This document shows, piece by piece, positions 3 through 9,668 of a DNA stretch of 10,156 nt. Under the pieces are notes generated by a model. The model had not been told where the DNA came from and searched no databases. It was given only the letters and a program-made list of their open reading frames with translations. Positions within the stretch are counted from its first letter, which is position 1. Every line of letters starts with the position of its first letter. This DNA comes from Planctomycetota bacterium (GTDB taxonomy: Bacteria > Planctomycetota > Phycisphaerae > WQYP01 > JAJZKY01), in contig JAJZKY010000118.1 of the NCBI GenBank assembly GCA_021803885.1, positions 1 through 10,156 on the forward strand. The letters run 5' to 3'. The translations under genes were made by a program, and so were the position numbers.

Positions 3-1076
3 CCTTTAAATCTGTATTGGACAGGCATGGGTGGCAAGAGATCGGCTAATTTATTGACGAAGCTTTTCAAATTTGCGGACTGGCTAGAACACCAAGGATT
101 TGGACTGCTACATGGATTGACCGTGCCGGCAAATCTTACAGACCGTGTTTGCTACGTCCGCGCATTCAACAAGAGAAAGGCCGCATCGCTTCTAGGTCAC
201 TTGAAGAGGATGCAAGAGATGCCGGAGCGGGTGGGCCTCCACAAGCGTGCTCGGCGCCGTGAACCAATCGTCATGGATGACCTCCACGCATTTCCAGAGG
301 AGATTCTTCCTCGCCTCCTGACACAAGGCTTTGCGCGTGGGGGTGCTGCCACAGCAACAAAGATCGAGCTGCGGTATGACATCCAGAGCATCTTGATGGT
401 CTTGATCATGCATTTCGGCGGTCTTCGAATCAGCGAGGTCTGCCATCTATGGACGCCGGACATCAGGGTCGGCGAACGTGGATGTCAGATCGATCTATTT
501 CATCCATCCGACGGTAAGATTGTCTGGCGCGGAAAAGCAATAAGACGGGCTGAGTATCTCATGCTACACGGCATGCGGCCGCTCACTGAAAGCCATGGCA
601 ACAATCGCGTCGGCTGGAAAGGCTCACTAATTACCAACGGGCGAATGATGAGTTCCAGGATCTTCCTGGTCCCACCTGAAATCTCCGAGCAGATCCGGAT
701 CCTGTACCAGTTGCACGTCGCAACCCGCCCATCCTCCGAGAACGGGCACCCTTGGCTCTTTGTCAAAGATAACGGGAGGCCGATGACCCCGAAAGCCTTC
801 AAAGAGCATCACGAACGCGCACTGCGCCGGATCGGCTATGAACCGAATAGCATTGACGGTCTCGACATGCACGGCCATCGCCACTCGTACGGCCATAGAA
901 TTGGTAGAATTTTCGAGAAAAAGGACATCATGGTCATGATGCGACACACCAGCCCCTTCTCGCAAGAAGCGTACAAGCAGATGAGCGAAAATGGGTGGGT
1001 AAAACGCATAGACGAAGCGTTGCGTGACTCCGTATTTAACGCACCGCTTCTCCCGCTTTTTGATTCCGGGGGGTGA
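3..1076 (+). CDS. Tyrosine recombinase / site-specific integrase, GmtY- or TnpA-like (5' partial)
   Basis: Predicted DNA breaking-rejoining enzyme of the tyrosine recombinase family, which cuts and rejoins DNA through a covalent 3'-phosphotyrosine. Counting from the ATG at 27, the catalytic residues are all visible: Arg134 in GLRISEV, the HxxR motif HGHR at 282-285, His307 in RHTSPF and the nucleophile Tyr316 in EAYKQ. Residues 1-70 look like the helical core-binding (SAM-like) domain. The reading frame stays open to the left edge with no stop, and the helical domain seems to lack its first part, so the true start is probably outside the window; ATG 27 is the first start visible. The stop overlaps the next gene by 4 nt, so the two are co-translated. 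A segment with HPSDGK and AEYL between the Arg and His boxes recalls, from memory, GmtY recombinases of the gamma-mobile-trio. Position in the cluster also fits TnpA of Tn554. The enzyme class is secure; the subfamily is not. Confidence 0.88.
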   Translation, partial: PLNLYWTGMGGKRSANLLTKLFKFADWLEHQGFGLLHGLTVPANLTDRVCYVRAFNKRKAASLLGHLKRMQEMPERVGLHKRARRREPIVMDDLHAFPEEILPRLLTQGFARGGAATATKIELRYDIQSILMVLIMHFGGLRISEVCHLWTPDIRVGERGCQIDLFHPSDGKIVWRGKAIRRAEYLMLHGMRPLTESHGNNRVGWKGSLITNGRMMSSRIFLVPPEISEQIRILYQLHVATRPSSENGHPWLFVKDNGRPMTPKAFKEHHERALRRIGYEPNSIDGLDMHGHRHSYGHRIGRIFEKKDIMVMMRHTSPFSQEAYKQMSENGWVKRIDEALRDSVFNAPLLPLFDSGG

Positions 1077-4000
1077 CACGCGTGTACAGATACCTGACAA
1101 CAGACTACAAAGTTGAGATTAGCCCGGCGACTGGCCGGGAAATCAAGATTAACCCGTCCTTAACGAAATTCCTGATTGTTCCGGAACCAAATTCGATAAA
1201 AAGAGCCTATCGGCGTATTCGCGCCATGCTCGATGACATCGTGGCAGAGCATGGGCGCAGTCAAGCCTACCTATCACTCACCCTTGACAAACACACGATG
1301 ACAGTCGTTGAGACGCATTATAAAGATAACGATCAGATTGTCTCCAGGCTTGATGAAGCCATTGGCGCCGTTATCGAATGGCGGCGGGAAATTAAAACGA
1401 AAATTAAAGACAAAACCGCATCGTCAATTGAAAAACGACGTTCGGCTGGCGAAATGGTGTGTTTCATGAAATTCATTGCCATCCTTCGCGATGAAGAGGT
1501 GTTAGCTTGGCCGTCTTATCGTAATCTTCTGTGTACTGAGGAGGACGGGCGTCACCGCTCGGAGCACACGGTTATCTCAGGTTTTTTCCTGGGGGCCCTT
1601 AAGCCGCTGCTAGACCAAACCGAGACCTATATAAGGTCGCGTGATCACCATGCGTCGGTCAGAGTAATATATGAGTGGATCTTCAGCAGGCTTGGTATCA
1701 CCTGCTTTGCTGACTTATCGGAAAACGTGTTGGGTGATGATCTTCGTAAAGGCAAGGCAGCAGCTGGATACTATGGGCTCAAAGCGCACGATGCTTTAAA
1801 CGCATTTTACAAGACCGAAGGCCACCCCGAACTTTGCTTCCCAACCGCCAAATATTCAAGGATCGGTCAGGACAAAATCACGGACGGCATTGACGAGGTA
1901 ACGTATCTTTTCCCAACAATGGCGCAATGGGTCGAGATCGCAAAGGAATTTGTCGGACAGAGCACCGGTCAGAAGAAGACTATGCTGTCTGGTTTGCGCA
2001 GCTTGTTGCAACAAATTGCTGAGCGTGGACCAGATTTTCATGATCCGAGATTTGTATTTCGAAATGCAGAACGTCTATCTGATCTGAATATCACGAATTC
2101 CCACTATAAAAAACTCTACAGGGGCTTTTTCAAGTTCGCCATGGAAAGCCGCAGTGTTTCGGAAATACTTCCCGATGGACGGGTCGCTGTTGAAGCGGGA
2201 TTTTCCAACCCGATAGATCGTATAGGTGCAGTAAGCAACTCAACCGCGGCCATCGAGTCGATGACACCGGCGCTCCCGACCTGGTTGATGCATCAAATGA
2301 AGCAGGTATTGGTTGAGGATAACTTCAGGTTCGGCCGTACACTCCATGTCAAAGGCATTGTGCCGGCGATTGACCGCCATATCCAACTAGATGGTCGTCC
2401 TATCTTCTGCCCTGTACGGAGTATCTATATGCTCCTGAAGCTTACGCTGCCGGTGCGTGGCCACCAGTTGCGCTGCCTTGATTCAGGTGAAGGGGATGAC
2501 CGTCGCTATGAGGTTGATCCGGAGGTCGTTGAACGTGCTGTTTTTGAGCAGACCTTTCCCGACGAGTTGCGCAAAGGAAAGTGGGCTATCAACAACGGGC
2601 AACTCGCAAGGCGAATCAGGCACTCACGGAAGATATTAGGGCAGCGGGTCCTTGGTCAGGGCACTCTTACCCAGCGGGTCGATAATGAAGGAGCACCATT
2701 TCTCGGGTTATATATCAATACAAACAAGACGGCAGACCAAGGGAAGATAGGCAACGAGGCGGGATATCATATCCCCTGGGTCAGTTCTGAAGCCGTCGCA
2801 TATATTTTATATATGCGAAACTGGTGGGAAACAAATGCACCATTAGAGGTGCTTACCTCCTGGTCTGATATAACTGAAAGATATTTTAAGCAAATGGATC
2901 GCTTTTATCTGGCAGGCCGCCCTGATACAGCGTTTTTATTTCGGCAGCCTAGAAGCTCGATCGGCGCACCGTTGCAAATGCATCAAATCGAATATTTTTG
3001 GGACGCCTTAATGGCAGAAATGCAGGCACGCTTGCAAAAGCAAGGCATAACGGGAATAGATGGGCAGGAAATTAAGCTAGGTGAATTTGTTGAAAGAAAG
3101 AGTGCAGGTAATAAAACGGACGTAGCCGACAGAACTGTATTTAGGCCTTATTATACACTTCACTCAATTCGTCACGGATTGATTACTGCATTGGTGCAGG
3201 ACGAGCGGATCCCAGTTGAGATCGTCATGAAGCTGGTTGGTCATGCCTCGATGGTTATGACTCTGTGGTATACCAAATTCTCTGACAGACACTTTCGCGA
3301 TGCCATGGAGAACGCCGCCCCAGCGCTCAAGGGGCAAATGGATGATTTCCTCGCCTCGCTGGCGGAACTCGACGACGGGACACGGGAGCGGCTCATATTC
3401 AACAGCCCGAATTGCTACGCCTATTTGAAGGATTATCCTAAGGCTTCTCACACTATAACGGATCTCGGCGTATGTCCGAATGGTGCCCAGATGTGCCATG
3501 TCGGGGGAATAGAGGTGAAGGATGACGGGGAGTCCGCGAGAGAAGGTGGCTCTCCGAAATATAAATCTCTGCGTCCGATGAATTGCGTGCGGTGCCGCTT
3601 CCTCGTCACTGGACCGGCCTATCTACATAATCTTATCAATTACTTTCACCAAGTCGGCTGGGCTCTACGGGAGAAATCTGTTGCACTGAATAAGCAGTTC
3701 GATGCTTGTGATCGACTGGAACATGGGACCGACGAAGTGAGGCGACAAGGAAGAGAAGTCGCTGCCAAGATGAATGCACTGCGCGTCGCCACGGAGCGAC
3801 GGCAGGCCCTCGAACACGAGATCAGGGACATTGTTGACGACTGGTCAGCAACCTTTCGTTTGATCGAGGATTGTATCGCTATCGCGCGCAAAAGAGCTCT
3901 GGGCGATAGCGAGAAGGCTTTGTTACTCGTCAACGATTTTGCGAGTTTTACGGATAGCTTGGTGTCTGTGGATAGCGGCGAAACCACTGTGTTGGAACTT

Positions 4001-4450
4001 GCGGATTGGATATGCCAGGCAGCCGAAGTTATGCAAAGCAATGTATTGACCGAGGTATTGTCCGCAGCCAGCGCTGAACGCCTCAAGCATCTCGACCGGA
4101 TCTTGAAGCGCCAAGGTATCGATCCGGTTTTTTTTGATCTTGATGAGGAAGTTGCCAGAGGTGTCGCCAATGAGATGGCTTATCGCCTCTACCATGAGCT
4201 TGGTCGGCAGGATGCCAACCGTATCGCTGCGGGCAATGCAACGCTGAAGGACCTTCGCATGGAACGGGCGCAACGCGGCCTTGATGATCGACCGATTCTT
4301 GCGGTCGAGACCCTGTTGCGGCAGGTCGGCCAGAACCCAAAGGTATTGCTTGAGGGCCCGCCTCCTTCAGAATTCGGATCTGCCGCCATGAAGCGATTGG
4401 AACTACCGCGTCCGAAGTTGCAGACTACAGAGAGCCGCAAACGGTCATGA
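1073..4450 (+). CDS. Very large second tyrosine recombinase, GmtZ/VPA1269- or TnpB-like
   Basis: A 1125-residue protein with a tyrosine recombinase core in its middle. Arg462 (PVRGHQ) is the likely first catalytic Arg. It is followed by HSIR at 697-700, Gly-His at 723-724 and the nucleophile Tyr733 (LWYTK). The 460 residues before the core are unassigned. After the core lies a possible zinc-binding cluster (Cys801, Cys808, Cys838, Cys841, as C-x6-C and C-x2-C), then a charged helical stretch around 855-930 that looks like a coiled coil, then a helical tail. It is about three times the size of an ordinary integrase and larger than TnpB of Tn554 (about 630 aa). The large integrase of gamma-mobile-trio elements is a closer size match, recalled and not tested. 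The chosen start is GTG 1073, which overlaps the upstream stop as GTGA like the other junctions. GTG 1082, with a G-run 8 nt upstream, is an alternative. It probably acts together with the recombinase encoded before it. Confidence 0.85.
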   Translation: MTRVYRYLTTDYKVEISPATGREIKINPSLTKFLIVPEPNSIKRAYRRIRAMLDDIVAEHGRSQAYLSLTLDKHTMTVVETHYKDNDQIVSRLDEAIGAVIEWRREIKTKIKDKTASSIEKRRSAGEMVCFMKFIAILRDEEVLAWPSYRNLLCTEEDGRHRSEHTVISGFFLGALKPLLDQTETYIRSRDHHASVRVIYEWIFSRLGITCFADLSENVLGDDLRKGKAAAGYYGLKAHDALNAFYKTEGHPELCFPTAKYSRIGQDKITDGIDEVTYLFPTMAQWVEIAKEFVGQSTGQKKTMLSGLRSLLQQIAERGPDFHDPRFVFRNAERLSDLNITNSHYKKLYRGFFKFAMESRSVSEILPDGRVAVEAGFSNPIDRIGAVSNSTAAIESMTPALPTWLMHQMKQVLVEDNFRFGRTLHVKGIVPAIDRHIQLDGRPIFCPVRSIYMLLKLTLPVRGHQLRCLDSGEGDDRRYEVDPEVVERAVFEQTFPDELRKGKWAINNGQLARRIRHSRKILGQRVLGQGTLTQRVDNEGAPFLGLYINTNKTADQGKIGNEAGYHIPWVSSEAVAYILYMRNWWETNAPLEVLTSWSDITERYFKQMDRFYLAGRPDTAFLFRQPRSSIGAPLQMHQIEYFWDALMAEMQARLQKQGITGIDGQEIKLGEFVERKSAGNKTDVADRTVFRPYYTLHSIRHGLITALVQDERIPVEIVMKLVGHASMVMTLWYTKFSDRHFRDAMENAAPALKGQMDDFLASLAELDDGTRERLIFNSPNCYAYLKDYPKASHTITDLGVCPNGAQMCHVGGIEVKDDGESAREGGSPKYKSLRPMNCVRCRFLVTGPAYLHNLINYFHQVGWALREKSVALNKQFDACDRLEHGTDEVRRQGREVAAKMNALRVATERRQALEHEIRDIVDDWSATFRLIEDCIAIARKRALGDSEKALLLVNDFASFTDSLVSVDSGETTVLELADWICQAAEVMQSNVLTEVLSAASAERLKHLDRILKRQGIDPVFFDLDEEVARGVANEMAYRLYHELGRQDANRIAAGNATLKDLRMERAQRGLDDRPILAVETLLRQVGQNPKVLLEGPPPSEFGSAAMKRLELPRPKLQTTESRKRS

Positions 4451-4908
4451 CGAGGCGCAACGTCGAGGAGGAGATTACCGCCAGACTGGATAAAATGTTA
4501 TCCTTTGAACAACCATTGCCGGCGACGTCCGACGGCAAGGTAAACGTTGCGGCGTTGGTTAGAATGCTCGGCCTAAAGGCCGCAGACACGCAGTATTTCC
4601 ACAAAATTGATTCGATAAAAACAGCCGTCAATGCGCTCGCGGCCGAGCAAGGCTTAGCTCCTATTGGTGCCCGCACTGAACAGGCTGCCGCAGACAAGAA
4701 GCTGCTGAACCGGATAGCTGAGCAAGGGAGACGTGCAAGAGAGATCGAAATTGGTGCGATCACCAACGCGTCTCTCGTCGAGGCTTTGAGCGAGGATCTG
4801 CGCGGAGCGAGGGCCGAGATCGTGCGGCTGCGCCGGGAAAACACCTCGCTACGCGAGCGACTCGCCATGGTCGAAGATTGCGGATTTCTTTTCGGCGATC
4901 AGCCATGA
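4447..4908 (+). CDS. Small coiled-coil protein, TnpC-like accessory factor
   Basis: A 153-residue protein of unknown biochemical role. Residues 30-75 form a compact region (VNVAALVRMLGL, then IDSIKTAVNALA) that could bind DNA. Residues 80-145 are highly charged with heptad-spaced Leu, Ile and Val and should form a coiled coil, hence probably a dimer. No catalytic motif, signal peptide or membrane segment is seen. It overlaps the large recombinase gene by ATGA and overlaps the helicase gene by ATGA at its own end. A small coiled-coil protein encoded right after two tyrosine recombinases matches TnpC of Tn554, which affects transposition efficiency and orientation. Small 'VPA1267-family' proteins near gamma-mobile-trio genes are another possible relative, from memory. 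The gene is supported by its tight fit in the operon; the function is inferred from position. Confidence 0.72.
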   Translation: MTRRNVEEEITARLDKMLSFEQPLPATSDGKVNVAALVRMLGLKAADTQYFHKIDSIKTAVNALAAEQGLAPIGARTEQAAADKKLLNRIAEQGRRAREIEIGAITNASLVEALSEDLRGARAEIVRLRRENTSLRERLAMVEDCGFLFGDQP

Positions 4909-7067
4909 TCGTGGAAATTGCGGTCGACCGTATTTTGGTGAAGTCGGCGACTTTCATCATCTTCGCGGGCGCAGCAGCCGATGGCCAACGCCTGATCGTG
5001 AAGAGTGCAGAACCCGTTCTGCCGGCGATCGGTGAGGTCTACCAGGTGGATGGCGAAGCCAAGGATTTTCGTGACCAACGTGGATATGTCCATCGCCAAA
5101 TTGAGGCGCGATATATCAGTCGGGTCCGGATTTCCGGCAAATTGATCGCACCGTGGCTGAGGACGCTGCCTGGGGTCGGCGTGGAACGCGCCAGGCGCCT
5201 TTTGATGGTCTACGGTAGCGAAGTGCTGGATGTGCTGACAGACCTCTCCAAGAATGAGGAATTGGCCGCGGTGATCTCGCCGGCCCGCCCGAATCTGGGC
5301 AGGAAGCTGGTGAGTTTGATTCAAAGTCGGCTGATTGGGTTCAGGACCGAAGAGGAAGCCGCTTTCGATGAAGGGCAGTTCTATCGCTCGCTCGAGGAAT
5401 ACGGGGTGTCAGAGGTCCGACTGGCAAGACGACTATGGCGGCTTTTCGGCGGCAATCAAGGTTGGGCTGGTCTGTTGGTCGACCCGTATATTTTGGCCGC
5501 CTTTACCGATTGGAAGTCGGCGGATGAATTTGGAAAGCGCATTCTTGTTGTTCGGTGCGGTTCGCTCGCTATTGGTGACCATCCCTCTCGCTTGATCGGG
5601 GCATGCGCATCTGCTTGGAGCGAAATCCTCTCAAGAGGAGAGACCGCATGTGGCCGCGAGAGTTTCGTTGAAGTGCTGGCGCATCGGATTCCGAACCCGC
5701 TGGACGCCCTCTCCCTCGCCCTAAAGCGGGGCCTAATCCAAGAATTTGGCCACCATCTTTGTCCCAAGGGTATCGCCTTTCTCGAGCGAGAGGTCCTACA
5801 TGGATTCCATCGTCTACACGGTCGCGCTGAGCAGGTGCCCGATGTCGATGGTCTTATCGACAGAGCTCAAACTACTGCAGGTTTGCGCATGACAAGCGAG
5901 CAAACCGACGCACTGAGGTTTGCCATTAAGAACCCAGTTTGCTGCCTGCAAGGCGGCGCAGGAACTGGGAAAACGACGATTTTGCGGGTCTTGGTTCGTG
6001 CCTGGGAACAATGCGGCGGCGACGTCATCATCGCCACGATAGCCGGAAAGGCTGCTCTGCGGGCGAGCCGAGCGACCGGCAAACTGGCATATACGATGGC
6101 ACGATTGATGGGCGGAATTGAGCGAAAGAAAGGACTATCCAAGGAGGGGCGCTTTGATGCAGCCAAAGCTATCGAAACCCCAGCGATCGGATCGCAAACA
6201 CTTATCATTCTTGATGAAGCTTCAATGGTAGACCTAGCGGCTATCCGATCCTTATTGGACCTCGCGCCCGACGGCGCCCGCCTGGTCCTTGTTGGAGATT
6301 TTGGCCAGCTTCCTCCGGTTGGCTTGGGTCAAGTTTTCCACGATCTCGTGTCCTCAGGCTGGTATACAGCCACGTTGTCCACGCCGCTTCGACAAGCTAA
6401 GGAGAATCCGATAGTCGCCGCTGCGTGGGCGATTCGTAACGGCTTACTGCCGGGATTGCCCCCCTATCGTGGGGCCGCTCAGGGTGTTTTCCATCTTCCC
6501 TGCCCCACTAAGGAAATCGGTCTTAGAATCCAGCGTTTGAAAAGAGACTTCCCCGACGATGTGATGACGATCACGGCGCTTCGGGCAACCGCGGCGGCAA
6601 TCAACGAAGAAGCAGCTCGGTCACTCGCAGCAATGGGCATCGAGGGGCAACGACTAGGGCCGAATTGCCCATTCGTCGCCATCGGGGAACCCGTGATTAT
6701 GTCGCGCAATTTCTATGCGCACGGCTTGATGAATGGGCAAACTGGGACCGTCACAGCGATCGACCCTGTGACGATTAGATGGGACGGTGAGGAACAGGCA
6801 CGAGAGGTCGACCCCGATTATATTGCGGAAATTGAGCCGGCTCATGCGATCACCTGCCACCGTGCCCAGGGCAGCGAAGCCGACGTCGTTATTGTCAGCC
6901 TCGATAGCGCGCATCTTATAACTAGGAACTGGCTTTATACGGCCGTAACCAGGGCACGAAAGACAGCCATTTTCGTTGGGCCGAGTTCGACCATTACAGA
7001 TGGTGTCGCCAAAATCACATCCCGCGCTACGGGTTTAAGGCTGATGTTGGAACGGGAGGCGGCATGA
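4905..7067 (+). CDS. RecD2-like SF1B DNA helicase
   Basis: Predicted ATP-dependent 5'-3' DNA helicase of the RecD/TraA superfamily 1B, 720 residues, close to the 715 of Deinococcus RecD2. The N-terminal 70 residues look like a small beta domain. A helix-hairpin-helix (LPGVG, 88-92) follows, with a RecD2-type DPY motif further on. Helicase motifs are complete: Walker A GGAGTGKT 350-357; Walker B LIILDEAS 433-440 with Asp437 and Glu438; motif III GDFGQLPPV 464-472; TPLRQ 493-497; motif V HRAQGSE 652-658; motif VI YTAVTRAR 678-685. All residues expected for ATP hydrolysis are present. ATG 4905 was chosen because it overlaps the upstream stop as ATGA; an in-frame TTG at 4878 would add nine residues but fits less well. 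No RecB or RecC is nearby, so this is the stand-alone RecD2 type, not the RecBCD subunit. Within the operon it could process DNA ends or intermediates during movement of the element, or serve as repair cargo. Confidence 0.88.
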   Translation: MIVEIAVDRILVKSATFIIFAGAAADGQRLIVKSAEPVLPAIGEVYQVDGEAKDFRDQRGYVHRQIEARYISRVRISGKLIAPWLRTLPGVGVERARRLLMVYGSEVLDVLTDLSKNEELAAVISPARPNLGRKLVSLIQSRLIGFRTEEEAAFDEGQFYRSLEEYGVSEVRLARRLWRLFGGNQGWAGLLVDPYILAAFTDWKSADEFGKRILVVRCGSLAIGDHPSRLIGACASAWSEILSRGETACGRESFVEVLAHRIPNPLDALSLALKRGLIQEFGHHLCPKGIAFLEREVLHGFHRLHGRAEQVPDVDGLIDRAQTTAGLRMTSEQTDALRFAIKNPVCCLQGGAGTGKTTILRVLVRAWEQCGGDVIIATIAGKAALRASRATGKLAYTMARLMGGIERKKGLSKEGRFDAAKAIETPAIGSQTLIILDEASMVDLAAIRSLLDLAPDGARLVLVGDFGQLPPVGLGQVFHDLVSSGWYTATLSTPLRQAKENPIVAAAWAIRNGLLPGLPPYRGAAQGVFHLPCPTKEIGLRIQRLKRDFPDDVMTITALRATAAAINEEAARSLAAMGIEGQRLGPNCPFVAIGEPVIMSRNFYAHGLMNGQTGTVTAIDPVTIRWDGEEQAREVDPDYIAEIEPAHAITCHRAQGSEADVVIVSLDSAHLITRNWLYTAVTRARKTAIFVGPSSTITDGVAKITSRATGLRLMLEREAA

Positions 7068-7756
7068 CTATCGAAGAAGTCAAAGCTCTGAAAGATCGTT
7101 TGGTGGTATCGCGCCATACGCAACGAGCCAAGGATGCCGTCGACGCGATTTGGCTCGCGCTTGAGGCGATGCGCCAGCGGCACGTGGTGACATATGCCGT
7201 CTCAGCCGTCGTGAGGACCGCAGAAGAATTGTGCCCAGGGAAGGCGCCGGCGCTCCAGACCGTACGCAACAAAATGGGCAAAGATTACCGTCAGCTGATT
7301 GATCTATACTCACGGGCCGCAGGTGCAAATCGGCCCGAGGACGCATCGCCAACCTTATCGCGGTACGACCGCGTGATAGATGGCATCGACAACATCGAAA
7401 TTCGGACCCAGATGAAAATCTTGCTTCGGGATTTCACGCGCGAACGTAATCAGGCAAACGTGCTTCGGCAGCTGTTGGCGCGAGTCTCAATTCCAGCTGG
7501 TGGTACACGCCCGCCACCACAAATATCCGGTCCAGAACACGGCGCTTCACTCAATCCGGAAGAAGCGCTTACCGAATTCGATATCAAGTTGATGGAAAAG
7601 CTCAGCGATAAGAAAGAGTTTGAGAGGCGTGGCCTCGAACCCAGAGACAACGGAGAAGTCAGGACCCTCGACGACATGGTTGTCCTTCCTGCCGGGAGTA
7701 CGCAAACCTTTGCGAGGGTTGCAAAATTTCTTCGTTCTTCGAGTTTGGCAGGATGA
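7064..7756 (+). CDS. Protein of unknown function, possibly GmtX-like with a DNA-binding N-terminus
   Basis: A 230-residue protein that closes the operon and overlaps the helicase gene by ATGA. A good ribosome site, GGGAGG, lies at 7054-7059. Residues 15-90 look like a compact helical domain containing the segment TVRNKMGKDYRQLIDLY (about 67-83), similar to DNA-binding N-terminal domains of mobile-element and plasmid proteins. From memory, GmtX of the gamma-mobile-trio has a comparable 'IRNK-G-x-YR-x-LI' segment; this could not be checked. The middle (100-140) is helical and charged. A Pro/Gly-rich linker (about 145-165) precedes a charged tail. There is no signal peptide, membrane segment or enzyme motif. 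The LexA-type site of recA begins 12 bp after its stop. The gene is well supported by position and ribosome site; the function is not known. Confidence 0.75.
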   Translation: MTIEEVKALKDRLVVSRHTQRAKDAVDAIWLALEAMRQRHVVTYAVSAVVRTAEELCPGKAPALQTVRNKMGKDYRQLIDLYSRAAGANRPEDASPTLSRYDRVIDGIDNIEIRTQMKILLRDFTRERNQANVLRQLLARVSIPAGGTRPPPQISGPEHGASLNPEEALTEFDIKLMEKLSDKKEFERRGLEPRDNGEVRTLDDMVVLPAGSTQTFARVAKFLRSSSLAG

Positions 7757-7918: not shown

Positions 7919-8959
7919 ATGAATGAACGAGCCAAAACTTCCGCAAGCGACAAAACAAAGGCCCTAGACGCAGCACTGGCGCAAATTGAACGCGCCTTTG
8001 GCAAGGGATCGATCATGAAGCTTGGAGACAAGCCACATGAGACGATTCCCGCTATCTCTACAGGCTCAATATCGTTAGATATTGCGCTAGGTATTGGCGG
8101 CATGCCGCGAGGTAGAATTTGTGAAATTTTTGGACCTGAGTCTAGTGGCAAGAGTACTGTCGCGACAACTATTGTAGCAGAAGCGCAAAAAATTGGTGGT
8201 TCATGCGCTTATATTGATTCCGAACATGCATTTGATCCAACTTACGCACAAAAGCTTGGCGTCAAAATTGAAGATCTAATATTATCGCAGCCAGATACTG
8301 GTGAGCAGGCTCTTGAAATAGCTGACACATTGGTTCGCTCTGGGGCGATTGATGTCGTTGTGATCGATTCGGTCGCCGCTCTTGTTCCTCGCGCCGAACT
8401 TGAGGGCGAGATGGGTGACAGCCATGTCGGCCTTCACGCCAGGCTGATGTCTCAATCGCTGCGGAAGCTCACCGGCACCATTTCTAAATCGAACTGTCTC
8501 GTCATTTTCATCAACCAGATCCGTATGAAAATCGGTGTCATGTTCGGCAATCCCGAGACCACGACTGGCGGCAATGCGCTAAAGTTCTACGCGTCGATCC
8601 GCCTGGATATCCGTCGGATCGGCGCAATCAAAGATAAAGACGAGGTCGTCGGAAACCAGACCAGAGTGAAAGTTGTGAAGAATAAGGTGGCTCCTCCATT
8701 CAAAGTTTGCGAGTTCGACATCATGTATGGGGAAGGCATTTCGAAAACTGGCGAGCTAATCGATCTCGGAGTGAAGACTAATATCGTCGAGAAATCCGGC
8801 TCTTGGTTCTCCTATAATTCCCAACGTATCGGCCAAGGCCGTGAAAACGCCAAGCAATTCCTAAAGGATAATCCCAAGATCGCCGAGGAAATTGAGGCGC
8901 AAATCCGCGCCAACGCAGGCGTTGTCGAACACTCAATGATTGGCGACCCAGAGAGTTAG
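7919..8959 (+). CDS. recA: RecA recombinase, divergent and probably accessory copy
   Basis: Predicted RecA, 346 residues, which forms ATP-dependent filaments on single-stranded DNA, carries out homology search and strand exchange, and in SOS stimulates LexA self-cleavage. All key parts are present: Walker [10 protein letters not shown] at 72-80 with Lys78; catalytic Glu102 in DSEHAFD; Walker B ending at Asp150 (VVVIDS); loop 1 region EGEMGDSH; loop 2 region [12 protein letters not shown] at 213-224; and the GQGREN segment of the C-terminal part. Several normally constant positions differ. Walker A has KST where most RecAs have KTT, DSEHAFD replaces DAEHALD, and VCEFDIMYG replaces VEFDIMYG with the usual preceding Gln. 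The C-terminal acidic tail is short (IGDPES). The gene has its own LexA-type box and promoter and sits beside recombinase and helicase genes. This suggests a second, mobile-element recA and not the chromosomal gene, though the latter cannot be ruled out from this window. The 5' half is poorer in GC than the 3' half. Confidence 0.95.
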
Positions 8960-9377: not shown

Positions 9378-9668
9378 ATGCCCAAGTCCCAAGTCGAAGC
9401 CGAAACCGCCCGGTTGGAAGCGCGGATTCCCATCCAAGTCTATGACCAGATGCAGCGCGCCGCTCGCCTACGCGGCCTGACCCTGACGGGCTATCTCATT
9501 GCGACTGCCGGAGAGGACGCGAGGCGCGTCGTTGAGGATGCCGAGATCATGCGCCTTGCGCGTGAAGATCAAATCCGCTTCGCCGAGGCGCTGATCAATC
9601 CGCCCAAACCGAAAGAGCGGCTGGCCCGCGCCGCGAAGCGTCATGCCGATCTGATCGAACGCCGGTGA
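9378..9668 (+). CDS. tacA: DUF1778/TacA-type antitoxin
   Basis: A 96-residue antitoxin of the DUF1778/TacA family. Residues 10-50 match the ribbon-helix-helix fold: a short strand (ARLEARIP) for DNA contact, followed by two helices (VYDQMQRAARLRG and LTGYLIATAGEDA). The C-terminal half (about 50-96), with a RFAEALINPP segment typical of the family, is the part expected to wrap and neutralise the toxin. The length is normal for the family. The stop overlaps the toxin start by 4 nt as GTGA, the usual translational coupling in these operons. The palindromes over the promoter are its likely target. GC is about 65%, much higher than in the genes to the left. Confidence 0.92.
   Translation: MPKSQVEAETARLEARIPIQVYDQMQRAARLRGLTLTGYLIATAGEDARRVVEDAEIMRLAREDQIRFAEALINPPKPKERLARAAKRHADLIERR

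Follow-up and report, generated by a model that had tools for sequence, protein, structure and literature searches.

The locus considered here raises the question of why the gene of a RecD-type helicase should stand inside an operon of tyrosine recombinases, and whether the helicase takes part in their work. The window, by which is meant the whole stretch of 10,156 nucleotides analysed (contig JAJZKY010000118.1, assembly GCA_021803885.1), is 100% identical to positions 254054-264209 of plasmid NZ_CP041717.1 of Acidiphilium multivorum JZ-6. It is the recombination end of an element which is inserted in the recA gene of that plasmid and which resembles the gamma-mobile-trio (GMT), the gene set gmtY-gmtZ-gmtX that was reportedly described by Mahata et al. 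in 2024 (Nat Microbiol 9:3268). Two genes, C and H, the second of which encodes the helicase, are placed between the window's counterparts of gmtZ and gmtX, and this C-H pair is found, in varied positions, next to recombinase sets of the GMT type (9) and of the GInt type (17).

A GMT-like operon in a split recA gene

Five open reading frames (ORFs) on the same strand form one operon, at the coordinates given in an earlier reading made from the letters alone (the sequence-only reading), whose view that it unites a coiled-coil protein and a RecD-type helicase with two tyrosine recombinases is borne out:

3..1076, + strand: gmtY-like tyrosine recombinase (Y), 5' end cut by the window edge; NF040693, 255 bits, cut-off 340
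1082..4450 (alternative start 1073), + strand: gmtZ-like tyrosine recombinase (Z), Integrase_2; NF047926, 429 bits, cut-off 600; PF13009, 126.7 bits
4447..4908, + strand: C, a helix-turn-helix-like domain and a coiled coil, first half of the C-H module; from the structure model and the partners in loci L172 and L174
4905..7067, + strand: H, a RecD-type superfamily 1B helicase, second half of the C-H module; TIGR01448, 251 bits, cut-off 500
7064..7756, + strand: gmtX (X), so named by RefSeq; NF040692, 74.9 bits, cut-off 40

Among the relatives of the trio genes only GmtX passes its curated cut-off, while the GmtY-like protein, a truncated copy, and the GmtZ-like protein fall below theirs. Gene 1 is complete on the plasmid, where it encodes 448 amino acids, and RefSeq gives the full-length gene no gmtY name. 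The trio genes are not directly adjacent in the window, since C and H separate Z from X. The R, HxxR, H and Y motifs are all present in Y and in Z, and the helicase motifs of H are intact; the roles assigned to these recombinase and helicase motifs are those which we take them to have. The model of C has a pLDDT (predicted local distance difference test) score of 82 and consists of helices at residues 3-67 followed by a single long helix at 78-149, with no fold match in the PDB at E <= 0.001, and C is 43% and 46% identical to its partners in L172 and L174. The fifth protein, which the sequence-only reading had left as unknown, is GmtX, a member of the core trio; its structure model is poor (pLDDT 68). 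A search with the GmtZ-like protein gave 4 matches and one with GmtX found only itself. Identical GmtX proteins are recorded on 29 contigs, of which the longest has 3.79 Mb, and this hints at copies outside the plasmid.

The sequence-only reading had also placed a 4-nt overlap at every junction of the operon. The three ATGA overlaps at 4447-4450, 4905-4908 and 7064-7067 are firm, being the starts used by RefSeq, but the first is doubtful: the GTGA at 1073-1076 exists, and the start of gene 2 in RefSeq is the in-frame GTG that follows (window 1082, plasmid 255135), which by our own reading of the sequence is preceded by a GGGGGG tract at a distance of about 8 nt, and which turns the junction of genes 1 and 2 into a 5-nt gap with no overlap. 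As proof of a single unit the overlaps were rejected because their geometry is too common, both junctions of a plain gmtYZX operon of Polaromonas having it and a start that gives a 4-nt C/H overlap being available in 18 of 27 C-H pairs. No tRNA and no Rfam match at the gathering threshold were found in the window.

The plasmid reveals the whole element. The 5' part of a recA gene lies upstream of gmtY and ends at the codons for GPESSG, and the remaining part is found at plasmid 1078-1893, across the record origin, which places the insertion point in the Walker A codons. Both junctions carry the exact 10-bp direct repeat AGTCCTCGGG (plasmid 253581-253590 and 1076-1085), a length of match that was also reached by 3 out of 300 shuffled versions of the sequence around the right junction. 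With one copy of the repeat counted, the element is 16,127 bp long, and when its flanks are joined recA reads without a stop across the 341 codons examined. The RecA of the joined flanks is 74.9% identical over 338 residues to a second RecA which is encoded by the element itself. No intact, uninserted copy of the same recA was found on another plasmid, the best among the long matches to the 3' part being 80-81% identical. A 13-bp near-repeat, TTGATAC[T/C]ACATC, with 12 of 13 positions in agreement, is located within the element at both ends, 15 nt from the left one and 55 nt from the right one (18592-18620 of L001 and 1021-1085 of L002), and its two copies might be binding sites. The order of the element is Y-Z-C-H-X, intact recA, a TacA/GNAT pair and an IS256-type transposase; the part of it in the window beyond gmtX holds the following genes, the last two of which share a 4-nt overlap:

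7919..8959, + strand: intact recA borne by the element; TIGR02012, 570 bits, cut-off 325
9378..9668, + strand: TacA-type antitoxin (cargo); PF08681, 75.8 bits
9665..10156, + strand: GNAT acetyltransferase (cargo), probably the TacT-type partner, truncated at the window edge; PF00583, 26.9 bits, cut-off 20.7

The third-position G+C content of the element-borne recA is 0.20-0.35 in 8099-8338 and 0.55-0.75 from 8399 on, a mosaic in composition that may point to a recombinant origin.

Recurrence of the C-H pair beside recombinase sets

The gene order of the nine GMT-type sets that adjoin a C-H pair varies, with C-H standing inside, behind or upstream of the trio:

Window and L174 (cut within Z): Z-C-H-X
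L172: Y-Z-ORF-C-H
L182: Z-ORF-C-H
L077, L179, L180 and L183: Y-Z-X-C-H
L033: C-H-Y-Z-X, the pair being upstream of gmtY

The protein at the X position has no similarity to GmtX in L172 and a weak one in L182 (profile probability 22%), and both are therefore taken as X by position. The GInt-type sets with C-H are L014, L043, L084, L184 (decayed), L185, L199, L200, L206, L207, L239 (with the pair 3.5 kb away), L240, L244, L245, L246, L251, L252 and L253, where the label denotes three mutually related recombinase genes in a row rather than a comparison with published gin sequences. In L043 and L084 the label draws also on the place of the set just after a gene for a single-stranded DNA-binding protein (PF00436; L043 3271-3834, L084 2686-3348), which is a site reported for GInts. 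No ginD-type gene could be recognised in L207, L251, L252 and L253. The named hosts of the pair are alpha-, beta- and gammaproteobacteria and one metagenome-assembled genome of the Holophagaceae, and the helicase of L174 is identical to one named Geomonas. The local models of C and H were trained on some of the loci later counted with them; ten C genes (L206, L207, L239, L240, L244-L246 and L251-L253) come from loci outside the training.

How regularly the pair accompanies each kind of set was judged from searches aimed at the recombinase genes. The ginC profile (A3) matched 3 of 385 genomes of the class Alphaproteobacteria, two of which have C-H, and 18 of 177 genomes of the G007 family, nine of which have it (eight adjacent, one at 3.5 kb), shares which may be too high because the profile was built only from C-H-bearing loci, G007 among them. 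Of the nine G007-family loci without C-H, one is decayed and two are situated at the end of a contig. The helicase-blind GMT sample comprised 17 loci: seven chosen from plasmid listings (L003-L009), two from a class-wide genome search (L187 and L188; of 369 genomes 3 matched, and L177, a fragment, was left out) and eight from the G006 family (L254-L261; 8 of 190 genomes matched, with G006 excluded since its L033 had been found via the helicase). C together with H occurs in 0 of these 17 loci, a short C alone in one (L006), and X, intact or broken, in all 17. Ten more plasmid loci (L189-L198) gave C with H in none, C alone in one (L197) and X in all ten, counts which provide no rate because these loci were picked after the H-bearing plasmids were known. 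Taken together, the blind and the hand-picked loci have gmtX in 27 of 27 and C with H in none, and they are samples rather than rates because the plasmid searches matched 146 and 140 records. In the same gmtZ list H is present at least on pKAZ1 (L180) and, to judge by positions only, on K. pneumoniae NZ_CP036336. The helicase was thus rejected as a constant component of GMTs. The C genes which L197 (11585-11995) and L006 (9973-10239) retain without a helicase have altered or shortened ends, which suggests loss of H in both.

The window-type helicase clade is rare (1 of 385, 0 of 274 and 1 of 195 genomes), and scans of genome and viral contigs with helicase profiles were swamped by ATPase-motif patterns but yielded a few usable loci. 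Two loci from other settings are recorded here as such. In Rhodovastum (L181, 7725-14138) a RepB-type primase gene, a C-H pair and an integrase gene occur in this order where no GMT or GInt set was recognised, and on a Salmonella IncC plasmid (L186, 8977-10881) a shortened RecD-like helicase gene stands beside mer genes, with no recombinase gene annotated adjacent.

The history of the pair was followed in two trees. The helicase tree has 40 rows, made up of 27 C-H pairs (L184 excluded), 6 database proteins and 7 ordinary RecD2 proteins, and its well-supported branches force at least 4 changes between GMT and GInt, as many as are forced by an earlier tree of 45 rows. GMT helicases fall in three places: L077, L179, L180 and L183 beside the GInts L084 and L240, with L182 and L239 near; L033 with the GInt L185; and the window, L172 and L174 near the GInts L014, L199, L200, L206 and L207. 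The ordinary RecD2 rows form one clade, into which L043 falls on a long branch, which makes its placement unsure. In a GmtZ tree of 32 rows, from which L170, L174, L177, L191, L192 and L193 were excluded and which contains several very long branches, the C-H-bearing sets are scattered and at least 5 changes are forced; the C-H label is neither clustered nor spread significantly when compared with shuffles. As read from these trees, the pair appears to have been taken up repeatedly, by several GMT and GInt lineages.

Possible roles of the helicase module

The explanation favoured here, which we hold to be evenly balanced between true and false, is that the window is the recombination end of a GMT-like element in recA in which C-H is an exchangeable module, H unwinds a strand-exchange intermediate and the carried recA replaces the split one. 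Y and Z would probably carry out strand exchange at the att sites, with X as a core accessory. C would probably bind DNA or the recombinase complex, and H would probably unwind the strand-exchange intermediate in copy-out or excision, which would render the element less dependent on host helicases. RecD2 relatives are expected to have 5'-3' polarity, and the same may hold for H. The carried recA would probably compensate for the gene which the insertion split, and the element may still be mobile. What the sequences show are the relationships of the genes, the site and ends of the insertion, the recurrence of C with H and the mixing of GMT and GInt copies in the helicase tree; DNA binding by C, the role and polarity of H, the replacement of RecA and continued mobility are inferred from them. 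The explanation is supported by the family scores, by the ends, the 10-bp repeats and the readable recA of the joined flanks, by the 26 recombinase sets with C-H, by the changes forced in the helicase tree and by the intact motifs of Y, Z and H. It is supported too by a control of 80 RecD-type loci from genome contigs, in which GMT or GInt recombinases occur in 5, all five of which have C, and in which the only other C is in L059, on a contig of 4.7 kb. A helicase step is plausible because SE elements are modelled, in the available part of their description, to pass via a single-stranded bridge to copy-out (PMC10214605).

Several points weigh against this explanation. Most of the GMTs seen are without C-H, from which it follows that GMT recombination in general does not need the pair, and in the portions of the reports available GInt and SE recombination is said to need just the four genes of each element (PMC5385486, PMC10214605). 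One element alone shows the insertion in recA, a close relative with an empty site was not found, and with sequences as the material no movement was observed. Window-type C is probably homologous to the other C proteins, to judge from a profile probability of 68% and weak single-sequence scores. Of the six C genes in the control of 80 loci, five had been in the training set.

A variant that we consider possible, if rather doubtful, makes C-H a stand-alone helper of movement that is exchanged among different multi-tyrosine-recombinase elements, in which C would recruit the helicase to an att intermediate with a single strand exchanged, and the peeling of a strand would lead to copy-out with little dependence on the host.

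It is unlikely that C-H is cargo serving an independent function, for instance defence, which sits beside recombinase genes for the sake of an active promoter and translational coupling. The lack of the pair in most GMT loci seen accords with such a role, as do defence-type genes adjoining some elements (e.g. restriction genes in L180) and helicase matches to RecD-type models of PADLOC (e.g. window H to typeIV_RecD, 159.6 bits). These matches, however, are spread across many RecD/UvrD-like models, as expected for a shared motor, and three C proteins as well as Y, Z and X have no PADLOC match at E <= 0.01. The two genes moreover stay together beside recombinase genes in 26 sets, which belong to two families, and in L033 they do so upstream of gmtY. 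The sequence-only reading had held that the helicase and the fifth gene would be only cargo if related loci regularly carried the recombinases without them. Such loci are indeed found for the helicase, whereas the fifth gene is present throughout the blind sample; and mere cargo does not describe the helicase well, since C-H recurs in or beside recombinase operons in distant lineages, in varied positions and in a second element family.

Less probable still is a role of H that follows the action of the recombinases, in replication or repair (the restart or the copying of a circle), or a role in plasmid stability, without contact with the recombination complex: SE circles are, in the available part of their description, nicked double strands for which replication is believed to be necessary (PMC10214605), and the pair of L181 follows a RepB-type primase gene, but that is a single case of undefined element type, and the annotation shows no replication initiator next to the window operon.

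Comparison with known systems

Literature searches found, among the matches listed, no paper in which a helicase module is connected with GMT or GInt, although the main GMT paper may mention these genes, and the words "helicase" and "RecD" do not appear in the GInt and SE papers as far as their main text was available (PMC5385486, PMC10214605). In RefSeq the gammaproteobacterial C already bears the name "VPA1267 family protein". A helicase module seemingly gained separately by different families is a concrete candidate for a part in the copy-out of multi-recombinase elements (GMT, GInt, SE, Tn554).

The motor domains and motifs of H align with those of Deinococcus radiodurans RecD2 (PDB 3e1s), but H falls below the RecD2 equivalog cut-off (TIGR01448) and lies apart from the seven ordinary RecD2 rows in the tree. 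Tn554 (tnpA-tnpB-tnpC), as described in the sources available, shares with the window two tyrosine recombinases and a small third protein, but the window has no match above the cut-off to DUF6262, which we take to cover TnpC, and has the helicase and gmtX in addition. Window C scores 17.7 bits against DUF6262 (cut-off 29), the C of L014 clears the same cut-off with 30.5 bits, and the family was not found in two C-H-bearing genomes. Tn554, with whose gene set the sequence-only reading had compared the operon, was rejected as the closest kind because both recombinases and gene 5 match GMT models instead. To GMTs the window is tied by relatives of all three trio genes in one operon, with GmtX above its cut-off; it differs in that Y and Z score below theirs and C-H is inserted between Z and X.

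GInts (ginABCD) resemble the window element in having a multi-recombinase operon and short direct repeats, of 10-17 nt in the part of the GInt report available (PMC5385486) and of 10 bp here, and GInt-like sets also bear C-H; they differ in having three recombinases where the window operon has two. The GinA-D models give no best match in the window operon, and no profile similarity was found between gmtX and the proteins at the ginD position. SE elements (intA-tfp-intB-srap), which are marked by a strand-biased circularisation that leaves no empty site, likewise combine several recombinase-type genes with an accessory gene at one end, but their gene set is another one, and the available part of their description does not mention a helicase (PMC10214605).

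The closest parallel to the insertion site is the recA island RME of Vibrio cholerae S24, which likewise interrupts recA and brings along a complete copy of the gene; in the available part of its report it has 32.8 kb, 9-bp inverted repeats, an insertion 494 bp into recA, and a phage integrase and a XerS-type recombinase as its named enzymes (PMC4405046). As with RME, the recA carried by the window element may offset the one that was split. With RME as the first case, the window element is a second island that interrupts recA and supplies the gene itself, and its enzymes, site and ends differ from those of RME.

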